DNA from: Zhongshania aquimaris
GTDB lineage: Bacteria; Pseudomonadota; Gammaproteobacteria; Pseudomonadales; Spongiibacteraceae
Length of the DNA: 64,000 nucleotides
Direction of reading: 5' to 3'
Assembly (NCBI RefSeq): GCF_019312595.1
Contig: NZ_JAHWDQ010000002.1
Location: 186,001-250,000 of the forward strand
Under the pieces are notes generated by a model that saw nothing but the letters and a program-made list of their open reading frames with translations, was not told where the DNA came from and ran no database searches. Shown in pieces: positions 47,927 to 63,802 of the stretch; position 1 is the stretch's first letter; each line of letters starts with the position of its first letter. A program made the translations under genes and the position numbers.

Positions 47927-49084
47927 ATGTATTTACAAGCGAAACGGCTGCTTAAGCTGGCGCTTAGTCCTGTGCTAATGCTGCTAAGTCTGTTTAGTGC
48001 CGGCGCATGGGCCGAAGCAGGCGAGCGTTGGCAAACCAATATGGCCCCCGGTGTTACCGAGGTTGGTCATCAAATTTACGATTTGCATATGTGGGTTTTC
48101 TACATTTGTGTCGTAACAGGCATAGTGGTTTTTGGCGTGATGTTTTACTCGGTATTTGCCTACCGCAAAGAGCGTCATCAGGAGCCGGCAACTTTTCACG
48201 AAAATACCCGCGTGGAAATTGCTTGGACAATAGTTCCATTTCTGGTTTTGTTGTTTATGGCTGTTCCGGCCACAAAAACACTCATCGAAATCTACGACAC
48301 CGATGACGCTGATCTTGATATTTTGATCACCGGTTACCAGTGGAAGTGGAAATACGAATACATCAACCCGCATGGCGACAATATCAGTTTCTTTTCTAAT
48401 CTGTCGACCGATGGCGCAGAAATTGCGAACACCGAAGCCAAAGGGTCAAACTATTTGCTGGAAGTTGACGAGCCTGTTGTCATTCCCGTAAATAAGAAAG
48501 TGCGCTTTTTGGTGACTGCTAACGACGTATTGCACGCGTGGTGGGTACCTGCACTGGCTGTAAAGCGTGATGCGATTCCTGGTTTCATCAACGAAGCATG
48601 GACTAAAGCGACTGAAACCGGTGTTTACCGCGGGCAGTGTGCGGAGCTATGTGGACGTAACCACGGCTTTATGCCGATTGTGGTTAACGTGGTTGAAGAG
48701 CCTCAGTACCAGGCGTGGTTGGGCGAGAAGCAAGCCGCTGCTGCTGAGATTAAAGAGTTAATGGCGAAAGACTTTTCTTTGGAAGAGCTGGTTGAGCGCG
48801 GTAAGTCAGTTTACGCGAGCAGCTGTTCAGCGTGTCACGGAGCAAATGGTGAAGGCGGTGTTGGTAAAGCCATTGCCGGCAGCCCAATTGCGACCGGCGC
48901 AATGAAAGAGCACACCGATCGCGTTGTGAACGGTGTACCTGGCACAGCTATGCCAGCATTTGGTAGTCAGCTAAATGAGGTGGATCTTGCTGCTGTAATT
49001 ACATATCAGCGCAACGCCTTTGGTAACAACATGGGTGACATGTTGCAGCCAGTTGATATTTACAAATTCAAGAAAGGTCAGTAG
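47927..49084 (+). CDS. coxB: cytochrome c oxidase subunit II with fused cytochrome c domain
   Basis: 385 residues. Signal peptide (about 1-29), two membrane helices (about 50-75 and 95-115), the CuA domain with GQCAELCGRNHGFMP and the preceding HAWWVPAL, then a C-terminal cytochrome c domain with heme motif CSACH (about residue 300) and methionine ligand in GTAMPAFG. The fused heme domain marks a caa3-like subunit II, as in the Pseudomonas aa3 oxidase. Electrons from cytochrome c enter at CuA. First gene of the cluster. Confidence 0.97.
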   Translation: MYLQAKRLLKLALSPVLMLLSLFSAGAWAEAGERWQTNMAPGVTEVGHQIYDLHMWVFYICVVTGIVVFGVMFYSVFAYRKERHQEPATFHENTRVEIAWTIVPFLVLLFMAVPATKTLIEIYDTDDADLDILITGYQWKWKYEYINPHGDNISFFSNLSTDGAEIANTEAKGSNYLLEVDEPVVIPVNKKVRFLVTANDVLHAWWVPALAVKRDAIPGFINEAWTKATETGVYRGQCAELCGRNHGFMPIVVNVVEEPQYQAWLGEKQAAAAEIKELMAKDFSLEELVERGKSVYASSCSACHGANGEGGVGKAIAGSPIATGAMKEHTDRVVNGVPGTAMPAFGSQLNEVDLAAVITYQRNAFGNNMGDMLQPVDIYKFKKGQ

Positions 49085-49096
49085 GGGGATTACACC

Positions 49097-50656
49097 ATGG
49101 GTGCTCATCACGGACCTGCTAAAGGTTTGACTCGGTGGTTATTTACCACCAACCATAAAGACATCGGTACGATGTACTTGTGGTTCAGCTTTGCGATGTT
49201 TTTACTAGGCGGCTCGTTCGCTATGATTATTCGCGCCGAGCTTTTTCAACCAGGCTTGCAAATAGTCCAGCCTGAGTTTTTCAACCAGATGACCACCATG
49301 CATGGTTTGGTCATGGTTTTCGGTGCCATTATGCCGGCCTTTGTTGGTTTGGCTAACTGGATGATTCCGATGATGATCGGCGCGCCAGATATGGCTTTGC
49401 CACGGATGAACAACTGGTCGTTCTGGATATTGCCACCAACGTTCCTATTGCTGGCGTCTACCTTGTTTATGGATGGGGGTGGTCCTAACTTTGGTTGGAC
49501 GTTCTACGCGCCACTGTCTACGACGTATGCGCCACCAAGCGTGACCTTCTTTATATTCGCGGTTCACGCCATGGGTATATCGTCGATCATGGGTTCCATC
49601 AACATCATCGCTACTGTAGTTAATATGCGCGCGCCTGGCATGACCTACATGAAAATGCCGATGTTTGTATGGACTTGGTTGATCACTGCGTTCTTATTAG
49701 TTGCTGTAATGCCAGTATTGGCCGGTGCAGTAACCATGATGTTGATGGATATTCACTTCGGTACCAGCTTCTTTAGTGCGGCCGGCGGTGGTGACCCAGT
49801 CTTGTTCCAGCATGTATTCTGGTTCTTTGGTCACCCAGAAGTTTACATCATCATTTTGCCAGCATTTGGTGTCGTGTCAGAGGTTATTCCAACCTTCTCT
49901 CGCAAGCCTTTGTTCGGTTATGACTCAATGGTTTACGCAACATCATCAATCGCGTTCTTGTCGTTCATAGTATGGGCTCACCATATGTACACGGTAGGTA
50001 TGCCGATTGCTGGCGAACTGTTCTTTATGTACGCCACCATGTTAATTGCGGTACCAACGGCGGCGAAGGTGTTCAACTGGATCACCACCATGTTCAAGGG
50101 TTCTATTACGCTTGAAACGCCAATGCTGTTTGCGATCGCCAAGGTGTTCTTGTTCACCGTCGGCGGTTTCTCTGGTCTGATGCTGGCGATTGCGCCTGCT
50201 GACTTCCAGTATCACGACAGTTACTTTGTTGTTGCTCACTTCCACTACACAATGGTTGCTGGTGCGATCTTCGCGCTGTCTTCTGCCGTGTACTACTGGA
50301 TTCCAAAGTGGACCGGCAAAATGTATAACGAGACTATGGGTAAAACCCATTTCTGGATCTCGTTCATTGGTTTCAACCTGACCTTCTTCCCTCAGCACTT
50401 TGTGGGTCTGGCAGGTATGCCGCGTCGTATTCCTGACTACAACCTGATGTTTGCTGACTTCAATATGATGTCATCGATCGGGGCGTTTATTTACGGTGCC
50501 AGCCAGTTGTTGTTCTTATTCAATATTGTTAGAACGATTACTCATGGCAAGCCTGTCAGCGATCCGAAAGTGTGGGAAGGTGGAACGACTTTGGAATGGA
50601 CAGTGCCTACGCCTGCGCCATACCACACCTTTACGACTCCGCCCCAGCTTAAGTAA
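49097..50656 (+). CDS. coxA: cytochrome c oxidase subunit I
   Basis: 519 residues, about 12 membrane helices. It carries low-spin heme a, high-spin heme a3 and CuB. Visible are the heme/CuB region FWFFGHPEVYIIILPAFGVV (cross-linked His-Tyr pair), WAHHMYTVGMP and HFHYTMVAGAIFA. The YIxx and K-channel elements mark an A-type oxidase. It follows coxB by 12 bases. Confidence 0.98.
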   Translation: MGAHHGPAKGLTRWLFTTNHKDIGTMYLWFSFAMFLLGGSFAMIIRAELFQPGLQIVQPEFFNQMTTMHGLVMVFGAIMPAFVGLANWMIPMMIGAPDMALPRMNNWSFWILPPTFLLLASTLFMDGGGPNFGWTFYAPLSTTYAPPSVTFFIFAVHAMGISSIMGSINIIATVVNMRAPGMTYMKMPMFVWTWLITAFLLVAVMPVLAGAVTMMLMDIHFGTSFFSAAGGGDPVLFQHVFWFFGHPEVYIIILPAFGVVSEVIPTFSRKPLFGYDSMVYATSSIAFLSFIVWAHHMYTVGMPIAGELFFMYATMLIAVPTAAKVFNWITTMFKGSITLETPMLFAIAKVFLFTVGGFSGLMLAIAPADFQYHDSYFVVAHFHYTMVAGAIFALSSAVYYWIPKWTGKMYNETMGKTHFWISFIGFNLTFFPQHFVGLAGMPRRIPDYNLMFADFNMMSSIGAFIYGASQLLFLFNIVRTITHGKPVSDPKVWEGGTTLEWTVPTPAPYHTFTTPPQLK

Positions 50657-59685: not shown

Positions 59686-59952
59686 TTATTCGTCTATACG
59701 TGGTGTCATTAAACTACTAATTTTGTCTTCAAGCTCAACACTTAAGCTAGCGGCAACAACGTCCAGATTTTGCTCTAGAAAGCGTTCTGCTGAGCGCTGA
59801 CTGGCGTACTCAATGTTAGCGTCAGGCAGTTTGACACTATTGACCTGATTGTAGGCTAAAACCATTGGCTCTGAGTCTGCAATATTGGGTTCTGCTGCAG
59901 TTGCCATGGCGCTGGCTATTAGGACAAAGATTGCACTGATAGTTTTGTTCAT
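59686..59952 (-). CDS. small exported protein of unknown function
   Basis: 88 residues. Signal peptide about 1-19 (IFVLIASAMATAAEP). The mature part is acidic, with no cysteines and a helical C-terminal half (SAERFLEQNLDVVAASLSVE). No family is recognised. An ACTCCTTTCT stretch upstream gives a GGAG-type ribosome site on the minus strand. A palindromic repeat lies 50-80 bases upstream and may control it. Confidence 0.7.
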   Translation of the reverse strand: MNKTISAIFVLIASAMATAAEPNIADSEPMVLAYNQVNSVKLPDANIEYASQRSAERFLEQNLDVVAASLSVELEDKISSLMTPRIDE

Positions 59953-60002: not shown

Positions 60003-60030
60003 GTTACCTTGTGTTACGTAAGGTAACACA
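60003..60030. promoter_or_regulatory. overlapping palindromes, candidate operator
   Basis: TGTGTTAC (60010-60017) and GTAACACA (60023-60030) are a perfect inverted repeat. GTTACCTT (60003-60010) and AAGGTAAC (60020-60027) form a second, interleaved one. A third GTAACACA copy lies at 60120-60127, nearer polA. The arrangement suggests a dimeric regulator's binding sites upstream of the small exported protein, or a hairpin in its leader. Confidence 0.5.
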
Positions 60031-60211
60031 TAATATTAGGTTCTCCTCTTAATTTTTGTTAATTTCTCAGCAATGTGGCAAATTGCCAAGGTGTCACCCA
60101 CCTCGATTTGTGAAAATAGGTAACACATCGACTTATTTTGCATAGCTAATGATGCTTGGCAGCCTCGTGGTACACTGCCCTTCCCAATAATTGATGTATC
60201 AAATCGCTCCC

Positions 60212-62971
60212 ATGACAGCCATAAAGCCCCTTGTTTTAGTTGACGGTTCTTCTTATTTGTATCGTGCGTTCCACGCCCTGCCGCCGCTTAACACCTCAAC
60301 AGGCCAACCCACCGGCGCCATAAAGGGGGTGATTAATATGTTGCGCCGATTACAGAAAGATTACCCCGATAGCCCAATCGCTGTGGTATTTGACGCTAAA
60401 GGCAAAACTTTCCGCGACGATCTTTATTCACAGTACAAGGCGCAGCGCCCGCCTATGCCTGATGACTTGCGCAGTCAGGTCGAGCCGATAAATGCCATCG
60501 TTGATGCAATGGGGTTGCCGCGGTTAGTAATTGATGGTGTTGAGGCTGATGACGTTATCGGCACTCTGGCGGCTCAGGCCGGTATGGAGCGTCCAGTGCT
60601 GGTATCAACCGGCGATAAAGATATGGCGCAGCTGGTAAATGAGCATGTGACCTTAGTGAATACGATGACTGATACCGTGATGGATATTGCGGGGGTCAAT
60701 GAGAAGTTTGGTATTCCTCCGGAGCTAATCATCGACTTTTTGGCGCTAATGGGCGACAAAGTCGACAATATCCCCGGTGTTGCCGGTGTTGGTGAGAAAA
60801 CGGCTCTCGCCCTACTGCAAGCGCTGGGTGGCTTGGAAGATATCTACCAAAACCTCGACAAGGTGCCAGACTTGCCAATCCGCGGCGCCAAAGGCATAGC
60901 TAAAAAACTTGCCGATAGTCGCGAGCAAGCTTTCCTTTCCTACACTTTGGCGACAATCAAATGCGATGTGCCGCTAGCGGTGTCGATGGCCGAGCTTCTG
61001 CCAACTGAGCCTGATAACGCGCGCTTGTTGAGCTTGTTTACAGAGTTTGAATTCAAAACGTGGATGCAAGAATTAAGTCGCACTGAGCGTGCGGAATCTG
61101 TGGAGCAGGCAGATCTCCTAAACGGCGGCGAAGCTGAGCCGGCTGTGCCCGCTTTTTCTGGAGAAGCAGATTACCAATTGATTTTAACGCAGGGCCAATT
61201 TGATGAATGGCTCGCGAAATTGCGCGCGGCTCAATTGTTTGCCTTTGATACCGAAACAACCAGTTTGAATTATATGCAGGCGCGGGTAGTCGGTGTGTCC
61301 TTTGCGGTGCAAGCTGGTCAGGCGGCTTATCTCCCCTTTGGGCACGATTATTTGGACGCGCCAGATCAGCTCGACGAGAAGATGGTCTTGGCCGCCTTGA
61401 AACCGATTTTAGAAGACCCCAGCAAAGCTAAGCTGGGTCAGAACTTAAAATACGATGCCAATGTGCTGCTCAATCACGGTATTACCCTTCGAGGTATTAC
61501 TGAGGACACAATGCTTGAGTCCTATGTGCTGGATTCTATTGGTAGTCGTCACGATATGGACACCCTCGCCCTGAAGCATTTGGGCCTCAGCACTATCCAT
61601 TTTGAAGATATTGCTGGCAAGGGCGCCAAGCAGCTGACCTTTAATCAGGTTGCTCTGGAACAGGCCGGCCCCTACGCAGCAGAAGACGCGGATATTACCC
61701 TGCGCTTGCATCAAGTGATGTCTCCACAGTTAAAGGCCTGCTCGGAGCTTATGTCGGTCTATCGCGACATCGAATTACCGCTGGTGCCGGTTTTGTCGCG
61801 TATTGAGCGCAATGGTGCGCTAGTGAGCCGTGACTTGCTTAATAAGCAGAGTCATGAGCTTGGTTTGAAAATGCAGGCACTGGAGAAAGAAGCTTATGAC
61901 TTGGCGGGTGGGGAATTTAATCTTGCCTCGCCAAAGCAGTTGGGTGAAATATTATTTGAGCGATTAAATATTCCCGTAATAAAGAAAACCCCAAAGGGTG
62001 CGCCGTCCACTGCTGAGGAGGTCTTGGTTGAGCTAGCGCATGATTACCCGCTTCCCAAGGTGCTTCTCGAACATCGCGGCATGGCCAAGCTTAAATCGAC
62101 TTATACAGATAAATTACCATTATTGATTGATCCGGCGAGCGGCCGGATTCACACCTCTTACCATCAGGCGGTGGCAGCAACGGGTCGTTTATCTTCTTCG
62201 GATCCTAACTTGCAGAATATCCCAATTCGCAGTGCTGAGGGGCGGCGGATTAGGCAGGCGTTTATCGCGCCGCCGGGCTATGTCATTTTGGCTGCTGATT
62301 ATTCTCAAATAGAGCTGCGCATTATGGCGCACTTGTCGGGCGATCGCGGCTTGATCGATGCTTTTGCCGCGGGTGAAGACATCCATAAAGCCACGGCTGC
62401 GGAGGTGTTCGGGGTCGCTTTAGACGAAGTAAGTGATGAGCAGCGTCGCAATGCAAAGGCGATTAATTTTGGTTTAATTTATGGCATGTCGGCCTTTGGT
62501 CTTGCGCGGCAATTACATATCGGCCGCAAAGAAGCTCAAGAATATATAGACCTCTATTTTGAGCGGTACCCGGGCGTGTTGCGTTATATGGATGAAACTC
62601 GGGTATTGGCGTCAGAAAAAGGTTATGTAGAAACCTTGTTTGGTCGACGCCTATATTTGCCGGAAATAAATGCCAGCAATGGAATGCGCCGACAAGCAGC
62701 AGAACGCACGGCCATTAACGCGCCAATGCAGGGTACGGCGGCTGATATCATCAAACGGGCCATGATTTCGGTAGATCGCTATTTGTCAGAAAGTGGCGTA
62801 GATGCCCGTATGATCATGCAAGTTCACGACGAATTGGTGTTGGAAGTAGCGCCGGCGGCCTTGGATTCTGTGAAGGCGGAAGTGATAAAACTGATGATGG
62901 CAGCGGCAGATTTATCGGTACCTCTGGAGGTCGGGATGGGTGTGGGTGCGAATTGGGACGAGGCGCATTAA
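60212..62971 (+). CDS. polA: DNA polymerase I
   Basis: 919 residues from ATG at 60212; an upstream TTG-ATG adds seven residues. A 5'-3' exonuclease domain (about 1-290: [40 protein letters not shown]), a 3'-5' proofreading domain with FDTETTSLN intact (about 350), and the family A polymerase domain with [52 protein letters not shown] and QVHDELVLE. All three activities should be present. Removes RNA primers and fills gaps. Followed by a likely sRNA. Confidence 0.98.
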
Positions 62972-63006
62972 TTTGCGTATTCGCAAATCTGCGTCTACTT
63001 TTAATA

Positions 63007-63116
63007 GGCTGTTGCTCTTAAATGTATGTGAGAACAGCCCCGCGTTAGGAGACTTGTCTCCCCCTGACTCCTTAGGAGTAGGATTGCCCGGTGAGTTCAG
63101 CGCACCGGGCTTTTTT
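63007..63116 (+). ncRNA. candidate small RNA between polA and engB (Spot42/ErsA locus)
   Basis: The polA-engB gap holds a well-folded 110-base stretch. Stem 1: GGCTGTT-g-CTC (63007-63017) with GAG-AACAGCC (63030-63039). Stem 2: GGAGA/TCTCC (63048-63061). Stem 3: ACTCC-TTA-GGAGT (63067-63079). Last is a strong Rho-independent terminator (63086-63116). A weak promoter, TTGCGT (62973-62978) and TACTTT (62996-63001) with 17-base spacing, places the start at about 63007, exactly at stem 1. Spot42 in enterics and ErsA in Pseudomonas occupy this locus. No sequence identity to them is claimed. Confidence 0.55.
63086..63116 (+). terminator. Rho-independent terminator after polA / sRNA
   Basis: GCCCGGTG (63086-63093) and CACCGGGC (63103-63110) form a perfect 8-bp G+C-rich stem with a 9-base loop, followed directly by six T residues. 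It ends rightward transcription before convergent engB. Confidence 0.92.
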
Positions 63117-63133
63117 GCACCTGGCAAATAGCG

Positions 63134-63802
63134 TTAAATCTCATTATTGGGCTCTGCCAGCTCATCGATACCAACTTCTTCACGTCTTGGAATATCCAGC
63201 CACTGGTCTAACTGGCTTCGCAGCGCCTGCAGGCCGTCGCCGTTATGGGCGGAAAACAATTGCACACTAATTAAGTCGCCGTATTCGGCGAGCTCCTTAC
63301 GCACTGCCAATAAGGTTGCCGACGCGGGGCCGCGTTTCAGTTTGTCAGATTTGGTAAGTAAAATGTGCATAGGCATGGTGCTTTTGGTCGCCCAGCTCAC
63401 CATTTGTTTGTCAAACTCCGTGAGGGGGTGGCGGATATCCATCATTAACACCATGCCCCGCAGCGATTCGCGTTTTTGTAAATAGGCTTCAAGGTTGCGC
63501 TGCCACTCATTTTTAACTGCCAGTGGAACTTTGGCAAAGCCATAGCCTGGGAGATCGACAAGTCGCTGGCGGCCGCTTTCATCTAAGATAAAAAAGTTGA
63601 GTAACTGGGTTCGGCCAGGCGTTTTACTGGTTTTAGCGAGCTTCTTGTTTTCCGTTAAGCGATTGATTGCACTAGATTTTCCTGCATTAGAGCGGCCAGC
63701 GAAGGCAACCTCCGCTCCGGTGTCATCTGGGCAGTGCATCAGGTTTGGCGAGCTCTTTAGATAACTGGCGCGGCGGTAGTTTAAAGCAGGGGAGGAATCC
63801 AT
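63134..63802 (-). CDS. engB: ribosome biogenesis GTPase EngB (YihA)
   Basis: 222 residues; the start [20 protein letters not shown] at 63802 is the family start and has a GGA-rich region upstream, while a longer frame to 63865 is not supported. GTPase motifs: [44 protein letters not shown] and [10 protein letters not shown]. Required for 50S subunit assembly. Convergent with polA, as in Pseudomonas and E. coli. Confidence 0.97.

Follow-up and report, generated by a model that had tools for sequence, protein, structure and literature searches.

What occupies the short gap between polA and engB in Zhongshania, and is it related to the regulatory RNAs that lie downstream of polA in other bacteria? 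In the 64,000-nt stretch of Zhongshania aquimaris DNA analyzed here (the window), the polA gene for DNA polymerase I (60191–62971, + strand; the start codon is the one given by the ORF tool, and a later ATG is possible) is followed by the convergent gene engB/yihA (63134–63802, − strand), recognized from its open reading frame and by EngB comparison. The unannotated gap between them contains a promoter-like pair of elements, three hairpins, and a terminator. The reading that we favor, with a probability of about 0.6, is that this gap is filled by an independent, trans-acting small RNA gene, the Zhongshania descendant of an ErsA-type RNA, which would act through C-rich pairing with ribosome-binding sites and whose transcriptional control has changed. 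On the other side of polA, the window holds a small divergent ORF (59686–59952, − strand) and, between this ORF and polA, an inverted repeat, GTGTTAC-GTAAG-GTAACAC (60011–60029), that is a possible operator.

Conservation and predicted fold of the proposed RNA in the gap

A DNA search finds the element in 10 of 18 genomes of the genus, and all 10 copies lie between polA and engB. The remaining eight congeners gave no match in this search. Five of them (G007, G008, G011, G016, and G017; loci L044–L047 and L049) have a polA–engB gap of only 7–17 bp, and the RNA is hence absent there; the other three have no engB within 1.5 kb of polA, and no clear copy is found downstream of polA. EngB is 66–70% identical in the five genomes with the short gap. 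Six records of Zhongshania contain an EngB relative with 89–94% identity: two species-level MAGs, strain BJYM1, Z. antarctica, Z. marina, and Z. aliphaticivorans, and the contigs of the last two carry the locus. The 7 genomes of the main clade give 21 pairwise comparisons, over which the RNA, at 92% identity, is more conserved than its surroundings: the final 300 nt of polA reach 77% and polA four-fold sites 38%. In the 21 pairs that span the two clades, the corresponding values are 76, 75, and 37%. A small protein was considered and rejected, as every frame is interrupted in at least one of the 10 copies and the loops carry single-base indels.

The proposed small RNA, of about 111 nt on the + strand, would extend from 63006 or 63007 to 63116. 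The predicted transcript 63006–63116 folds at −46.1 kcal/mol into three hairpins and a terminator (z −4.74), and none of 200 dinucleotide shuffles folds as well. The same four-hairpin order is predicted in all 10 genus copies, which bears out the three ordered stems and strong terminator described by the first-pass annotation. Hairpin 1 (63007–63039, with its stem within 63006–63040) is followed by a single-stranded linker, CCGCGTTA (63040–63047), the most exposed conserved C-rich stretch of the molecule, which in the main clade reads CCCCGCGTTA when 63038–63039 are included and which, as CCCCGCGUUA, is predicted to be open at CCGCGUUA. Hairpin 2 (63048–63061; GGAGA-CUUG-UCUCC, GGAGACTTGTCTCC) is invariant in all 10 genomes, and hairpin 3 (63063–63082; CCUGACUCC-UUA-GGAGUAGG, CCTGACTCCTTAGGAGTAGG) has a nearly invariant stem and a variable loop. 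Together, these two hairpins form a tract resembling an anti–Shine-Dalgarno sequence, UCUCCCCCUGACUCC. The intrinsic terminator (63086–63116, + strand), recognized from sequence and fold, consists of a hairpin at 63086–63110 and a U6 tail at 63111–63116. A consensus scanner reported no terminators in 62800–63300; we attribute this to a loop that exceeds the limit of the scanner.

Covariation between paired positions is concentrated in hairpin 1, where three of the six counted pairs show compensatory changes (GGCTGTT..AACAGCC, GCTATT..AATAGC, and GCCGTC..GATGGC). Hairpin 2 never varies and hairpin 3 does so solely at its outer counted pair and in its loop; neither, therefore, provides evidence from covariation. 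The first-pass annotation had named stems that do not covary among the grounds for abandoning its proposal, and on this count stem 1 upholds the proposal, whereas the invariant stem 2 and the single outer pair of stem 3 do not speak to it. Taking the helices together, pairing holds in 97.1% of cells, compared with 95.0% in shuffles and 40–50% for slid partners. None of 500 shuffles reached the covariation score, but 50 of the 500 reached the observed count of doubly changed pairs. Conserved structure, a terminator, and the lack of a reading frame are what is expected of an independent bacterial small RNA gene; they confirm the observation of the first-pass annotation that a new small RNA is likely to lie here and support a conserved, non-coding RNA gene with a predicted promoter and a terminator of its own.

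Promoter-like elements and the polA-downstream site across the order

Upstream of the RNA, a −35-like element, TTTGCG (62972–62977, + strand), and a −10-like element, GTCTACT (62993–62999, + strand), contain the strings TTGC and GTCTA, respectively, each invariant in the 10 RNA-bearing genomes. TTTGCG and TCTACT (62994–62999) are 16 nt apart, and TTGC-N16-GTCTA keeps this one spacing in all 10 genomes even though the spacer diverges between the clades. In the 7 main-clade genomes, TTGC begins 1 nt past the polA stop codon; in the second clade, polA and the −35 are separated by 16–47 nt. By rule of thumb, transcription from such a promoter would start near 63006/63007, at stem 1, and end at the RNA's own terminator. 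The spaced promoter with a start at stem 1 that had been annotated is thus compatible with the 16-nt spacing, but the consensus scanner found no sigma-70 promoters in 62800–63300, and the hexamers are weak sigma-70 matches. A palindrome over the −35, TTTGCG-TATT-CGCAAA, had also been put forward as a regulator site; we rejected it as an operator because its 5-nt arms, TTTGC/GCAAA, are kept in just 5 of the 10 genomes, and TTGC alone in all of them.

The −10 string recurs at another promoter of the same genome. The Zhongshania genome has one AlgU/RpoE above the family cut-off, and upstream of algU/rpoE we read by eye GAACTT-N16-TCTACT, a promoter that a stricter script pattern did not list. Because TCTACT is shared, the RNA has the genome's own sigma-E −10 at the right distance, with TTTGCG in place of GAACTT. 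The GAACTT −35 pattern occurs in 0 of the 10 RNA-bearing genomes, where the −10 alone fits. Control of the gene may accordingly have been altered by loss of a sigma-E −35 that a sister genus and many relatives carry, with the −10 retained.

These relatives come from a survey of 116 author-picked stretches downstream of polA, comprising 41 of 80 engB-side loci for which polA was found (mostly from the top of the EngB-similarity list), 60 of 69 polA-side matches, and 15 Zhongshania gaps; 26 of the 116 are shorter than 453 nt. The C-terminal 98 residues encoded by polA are present in all 69 order genomes searched. A sigma-E-type pattern, GAACT-N15-19-TCNNA, written after first sight of the sequences, occurs in 44 of the 116 stretches and in 15 of 31 families, compared with a mean of 2.35 and a maximum of 6 in shuffles and with 5 of 116 in the reverse-strand control. 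At least one of the 44 matches (G210, f36) looks coding. In 60 genomes, the pattern is found 20 times in the first 450 nt and 3 times in the next 450 nt. The sequence that follows it is rich in C, with 98 runs of at least four C compared with 55 in shuffles, and 26 G runs; 43 of the 44 stretches hold at least one C run. A simple rule places a terminator after 29 of the 44 patterns, at a median of 112 nt from the −10. In the sister genus (G018), we read by eye GAACT-N17-TCTAA; two hairpins come next, then UUUUUCCCC and a terminator whose opening sequence, GAUUGCCCGG, is as in Zhongshania.

Some of these RNAs belong to the ErsA family, RF01719, as is the case in four loci of family f21, which we infer to be the Pseudomonadaceae. 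RF01719 exceeds its cut-off in 12 of 293 order genomes, all from f21, and 14 more match below the cut-off at E 0.01. By coordinates, such weaker matches lie beside polA or engB in G053, G089, G168, G199, and G238, beside engB only in G126, and elsewhere in G160 and G121. Loci of f34 and f8 reach 25–41 bits with RF01719 at the site. Five f8 stretches (L133, L153, L161, L162, and L177) each contain two sigma-E-type matches about 170–210 nt apart, an arrangement that resembles tandem ErsA-like RNAs, and RF01719 matches twice in L133, L161, and L177. The survey points to a sigma-E-driven RNA of the ErsA type as a common neighbor of polA in Pseudomonadales, well in excess of what Rfam recognizes (12/293).

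The Zhongshania RNA itself is not linked to ErsA by any of the sequence searches. An Rfam search placed it in no family at cut-off, ErsA and Spot 42 included, and neither RF01719 nor Spot 42 matched even at E 10 over 351 bases. RF01719 likewise matched 0 of the 12 genus genomes in the order sample at E 0.01. A covariance model built on the 10 copies (R1) and run on 21 genomes of the family recovers those 10 genomes and gives a single additional match, which resembles a terminator. Across the order, R1 gives five non-genus matches, and five weak loci that were read (L068–L072) are terminators elsewhere; such a search, suggested by the first-pass annotation along with the Rfam comparison, retrieves the genus copies and, among the loci read outside the genus, terminators. 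With filters off, R1 reached at best E 0.04 on 39 order loci, which is not evidence. An nhmmer profile without the terminator found nothing beyond the genus (best E 2.3, on the wrong strand), and MAFFT of six distant RNAs gave no useful alignment. The best pairwise alignment, collinear with an RNA at the site in G086 (f47), was reached by 2 of 200 shuffles; as one of 106 targets tried, it is not significant alone. Given the missing RF01719 match, the lack of an nhmmer homolog, and the weak pairwise score, we do not file the RNA as ErsA. By sequence it is not ErsA; by descent it perhaps is, as site, orientation, size, C-richness, and −10 agree. The earlier suggestion of a divergent Spot 42 or ErsA counterpart is accordingly plausible from synteny, from the ErsA-like loci across the order, and from the sigma-E-like −10, but no sequence or Rfam search ties the RNA to either.

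Proposed pairing with ribosome-binding sites and alternative readings

Pairing with ribosome-binding sites is, in our analysis, the likeliest mechanism of the RNA, at moderate odds. The C-rich stretches (the linker CCCCGCGUU and the tract UCUCCCCCUGACUCC) would pair with G-rich ribosome-binding sites and so lower translation, the linker and UCUCCCCC being the stretches proposed for target pairing. The GGAG and CTCC motifs that the first-pass annotation noted in stems 2 and 3 are indeed present and are predicted to pair with each other, but this pairing would bury them inside the stems rather than leave them free for ribosome-binding sites, and all but one or two bases of UCUCCCCCUGACUCC are predicted to be paired. 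For the tract to pair, hairpins 2 and 3 would have to open, probably with the help of Hfq; an hfq gene is present in the Zhongshania genome.

The one candidate target tested does not discriminate. Upstream of a gene of the OmpA/OprF family in the Zhongshania genome (L225:397–1503, − strand), whose ribosome-binding site is unusually rich in G, UUAGGGGGAGA is fully complementary to UCUCCCCCUGA, with one G-U pair. All 18 congeners, the 10 with the RNA and the 8 without it, have the G-rich site (AGGGGGAG or AGGGGAG) before the OprF-like ortholog (L249–L266), so it gives no support for targeting and is not diagnostic. Upstream of ATG, G-rich sites show hardly any enrichment (30 compared with 22 in a backwards control), and duplex energies in the target search ranked mostly spurious frames. 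The search candidates include sites at GrxC, FtsX, and coxI; the last, the gene for cytochrome c oxidase subunit I, is preceded by AGGGGGATTACACCATG (window ∼49083–49099, + strand), one of the 30 G-rich sites.

Descent from an ErsA-type RNA has to be weighed against a genus-specific gene that arose anew in a gap tolerant of small RNAs, acting by C-rich pairing or by another mechanism. Such an origin would account for the lack of detectable sequence similarity beyond the genus, for the different −35, and for the 5 of 18 congeners that have a 7–17-bp gap and no RNA. We nevertheless consider it unlikely, since the gap, orientation, size, and C-rich four-hairpin style match those of the ErsA-type loci of the order, and since the sister genus has a sigma-E-type RNA at this place and the −10 is shared.

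Two further readings question whether the hairpins form a separate pairing RNA at all. They could be a processed or structured 3′ UTR that just terminates and protects polA mRNA, with no separate promoter. That the main-clade RNA immediately follows the polA stop, that its terminator would also serve polA, and that no consensus sigma-70 promoter is found are all in keeping with this, yet the second clade preserves the TTGC-N16-GTCTA spacing behind 16–47 nt of intervening sequence, and a terminator alone would have no need of invariant hairpins 2 and 3. We regard this reading as improbable, and a small RNA derived from a 3′ end would still be a regulatory RNA. Least probable of all is an RNA that binds a protein through GGA in the manner of CsrA/RsmA ligands, or that serves as an RNA sponge through GGAG, in place of C-rich mRNA pairing. 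GGA occurs three times (GGAGA, GGAGU, and AGGAUU) and hairpins 2 and 3 are invariant even where paired. Csr/Rsm RNAs, however, present their GGA motifs in apical loops, and both GGAG motifs here are in stems. An independent, trans-acting small RNA of ErsA-type descent remains our preferred reading.

Comparison with known RNAs of the polA locus

Three well-studied regulators, Spot 42, ErsA, and sX13, occupy this site in other bacteria. Spot 42 is repressed by CRP. PMC3295665 describes its gene in E. coli and Aliivibrio as having polA on the upstream side and engB/yihA on the downstream side, and by eye we see the Spot 42 gap in two Shewanella loci as well (L056 and L057). The Zhongshania RNA shares this gap with Spot 42 but has neither an Rfam match nor any sequence likeness to it.

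The closest parallel is with ErsA (RF01719, Pseudomon-1 RNA), placed in the polA–engB gap of Pseudomonas by PMC8575079 and described in PMC6321483 as repressing algC by ribosome-binding site pairing with Hfq, as well as the porin OprD. The two RNAs have in common their location, a similar size (132 nt for ErsA), C-rich stretches, a terminator of their own, and an AlgU-type −10. The Zhongshania RNA differs in giving no RF01719 match (gathering score 50 bits), in having no sigma-22/AlgU GAACTT −35 and, by eye, no conserved ErsA segment CUCCU..GUGUUNAGUGUUGGC, and in carrying its C tract in stems rather than loops.

With sX13 (RF02232) of the Xanthomonadaceae, which PMC3771888 describes as an RNA of ∼115 nt downstream of polA with three stable hairpins, whose C-rich loops act, without Hfq, to repress mRNAs that carry G-rich motifs close to their start, the RNA shares its position downstream of polA, three hairpins, and C-rich motifs. 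It has no Rfam match to sX13, however, and where sX13 displays C-runs in three apical loops, its own loops are CUUG and UUA/UUUA and its C-runs lie in stems and linker. A polA–engB RNA in another locus (L081, f40, ∼1521–1645) weakly matches both RF01719 (25.3 bits) and RF02232 (25.1 bits) and is a possible link between the two families.

The best Rfam score for the RNA comes from a family of other loci, the Betaproteobacteria toxic small RNA (RF02278), at 28.1 bits for 63055–63117, short of the 50 bits that its cut-off requires (E 0.00079 in a search of 351 bases, 0.064 in one of 28 kb). Both have a CUCC-rich segment before a GC-rich terminator, but several pairs of the model are broken in the Zhongshania RNA, and PMC4603805 describes RF02278 as present several times in each Burkholderia genome, at other loci.

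These comparisons allow a broader, more tentative conjecture, which we hold to be possible though doubtful: that the site downstream of polA is one old regulatory RNA locus of Gammaproteobacteria, at which ErsA, sX13, and the unnamed C-rich, sigma-E-driven RNAs found here in Pseudomonadales have a common origin, perhaps together with Spot 42, and at which lineages swap the promoter and keep the gene. Zhongshania would then represent the state after such a swap, in which the −10 was kept, the sigma-E −35 gave way to TTGC, and the C tract moved from loops into stems that can be opened. Our literature search, limited to the papers searchable here, found none joining Zhongshania with a small RNA, nor ErsA with sX13. 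The authors of the sX13 study raised in PMC3771888 the question of whether small RNAs are likewise encoded at the polA locus in other bacteria; the order survey provides a list of loci on which that question can be tested, and the Zhongshania RNA adds a new family at the site of Spot 42, ErsA, and sX13.
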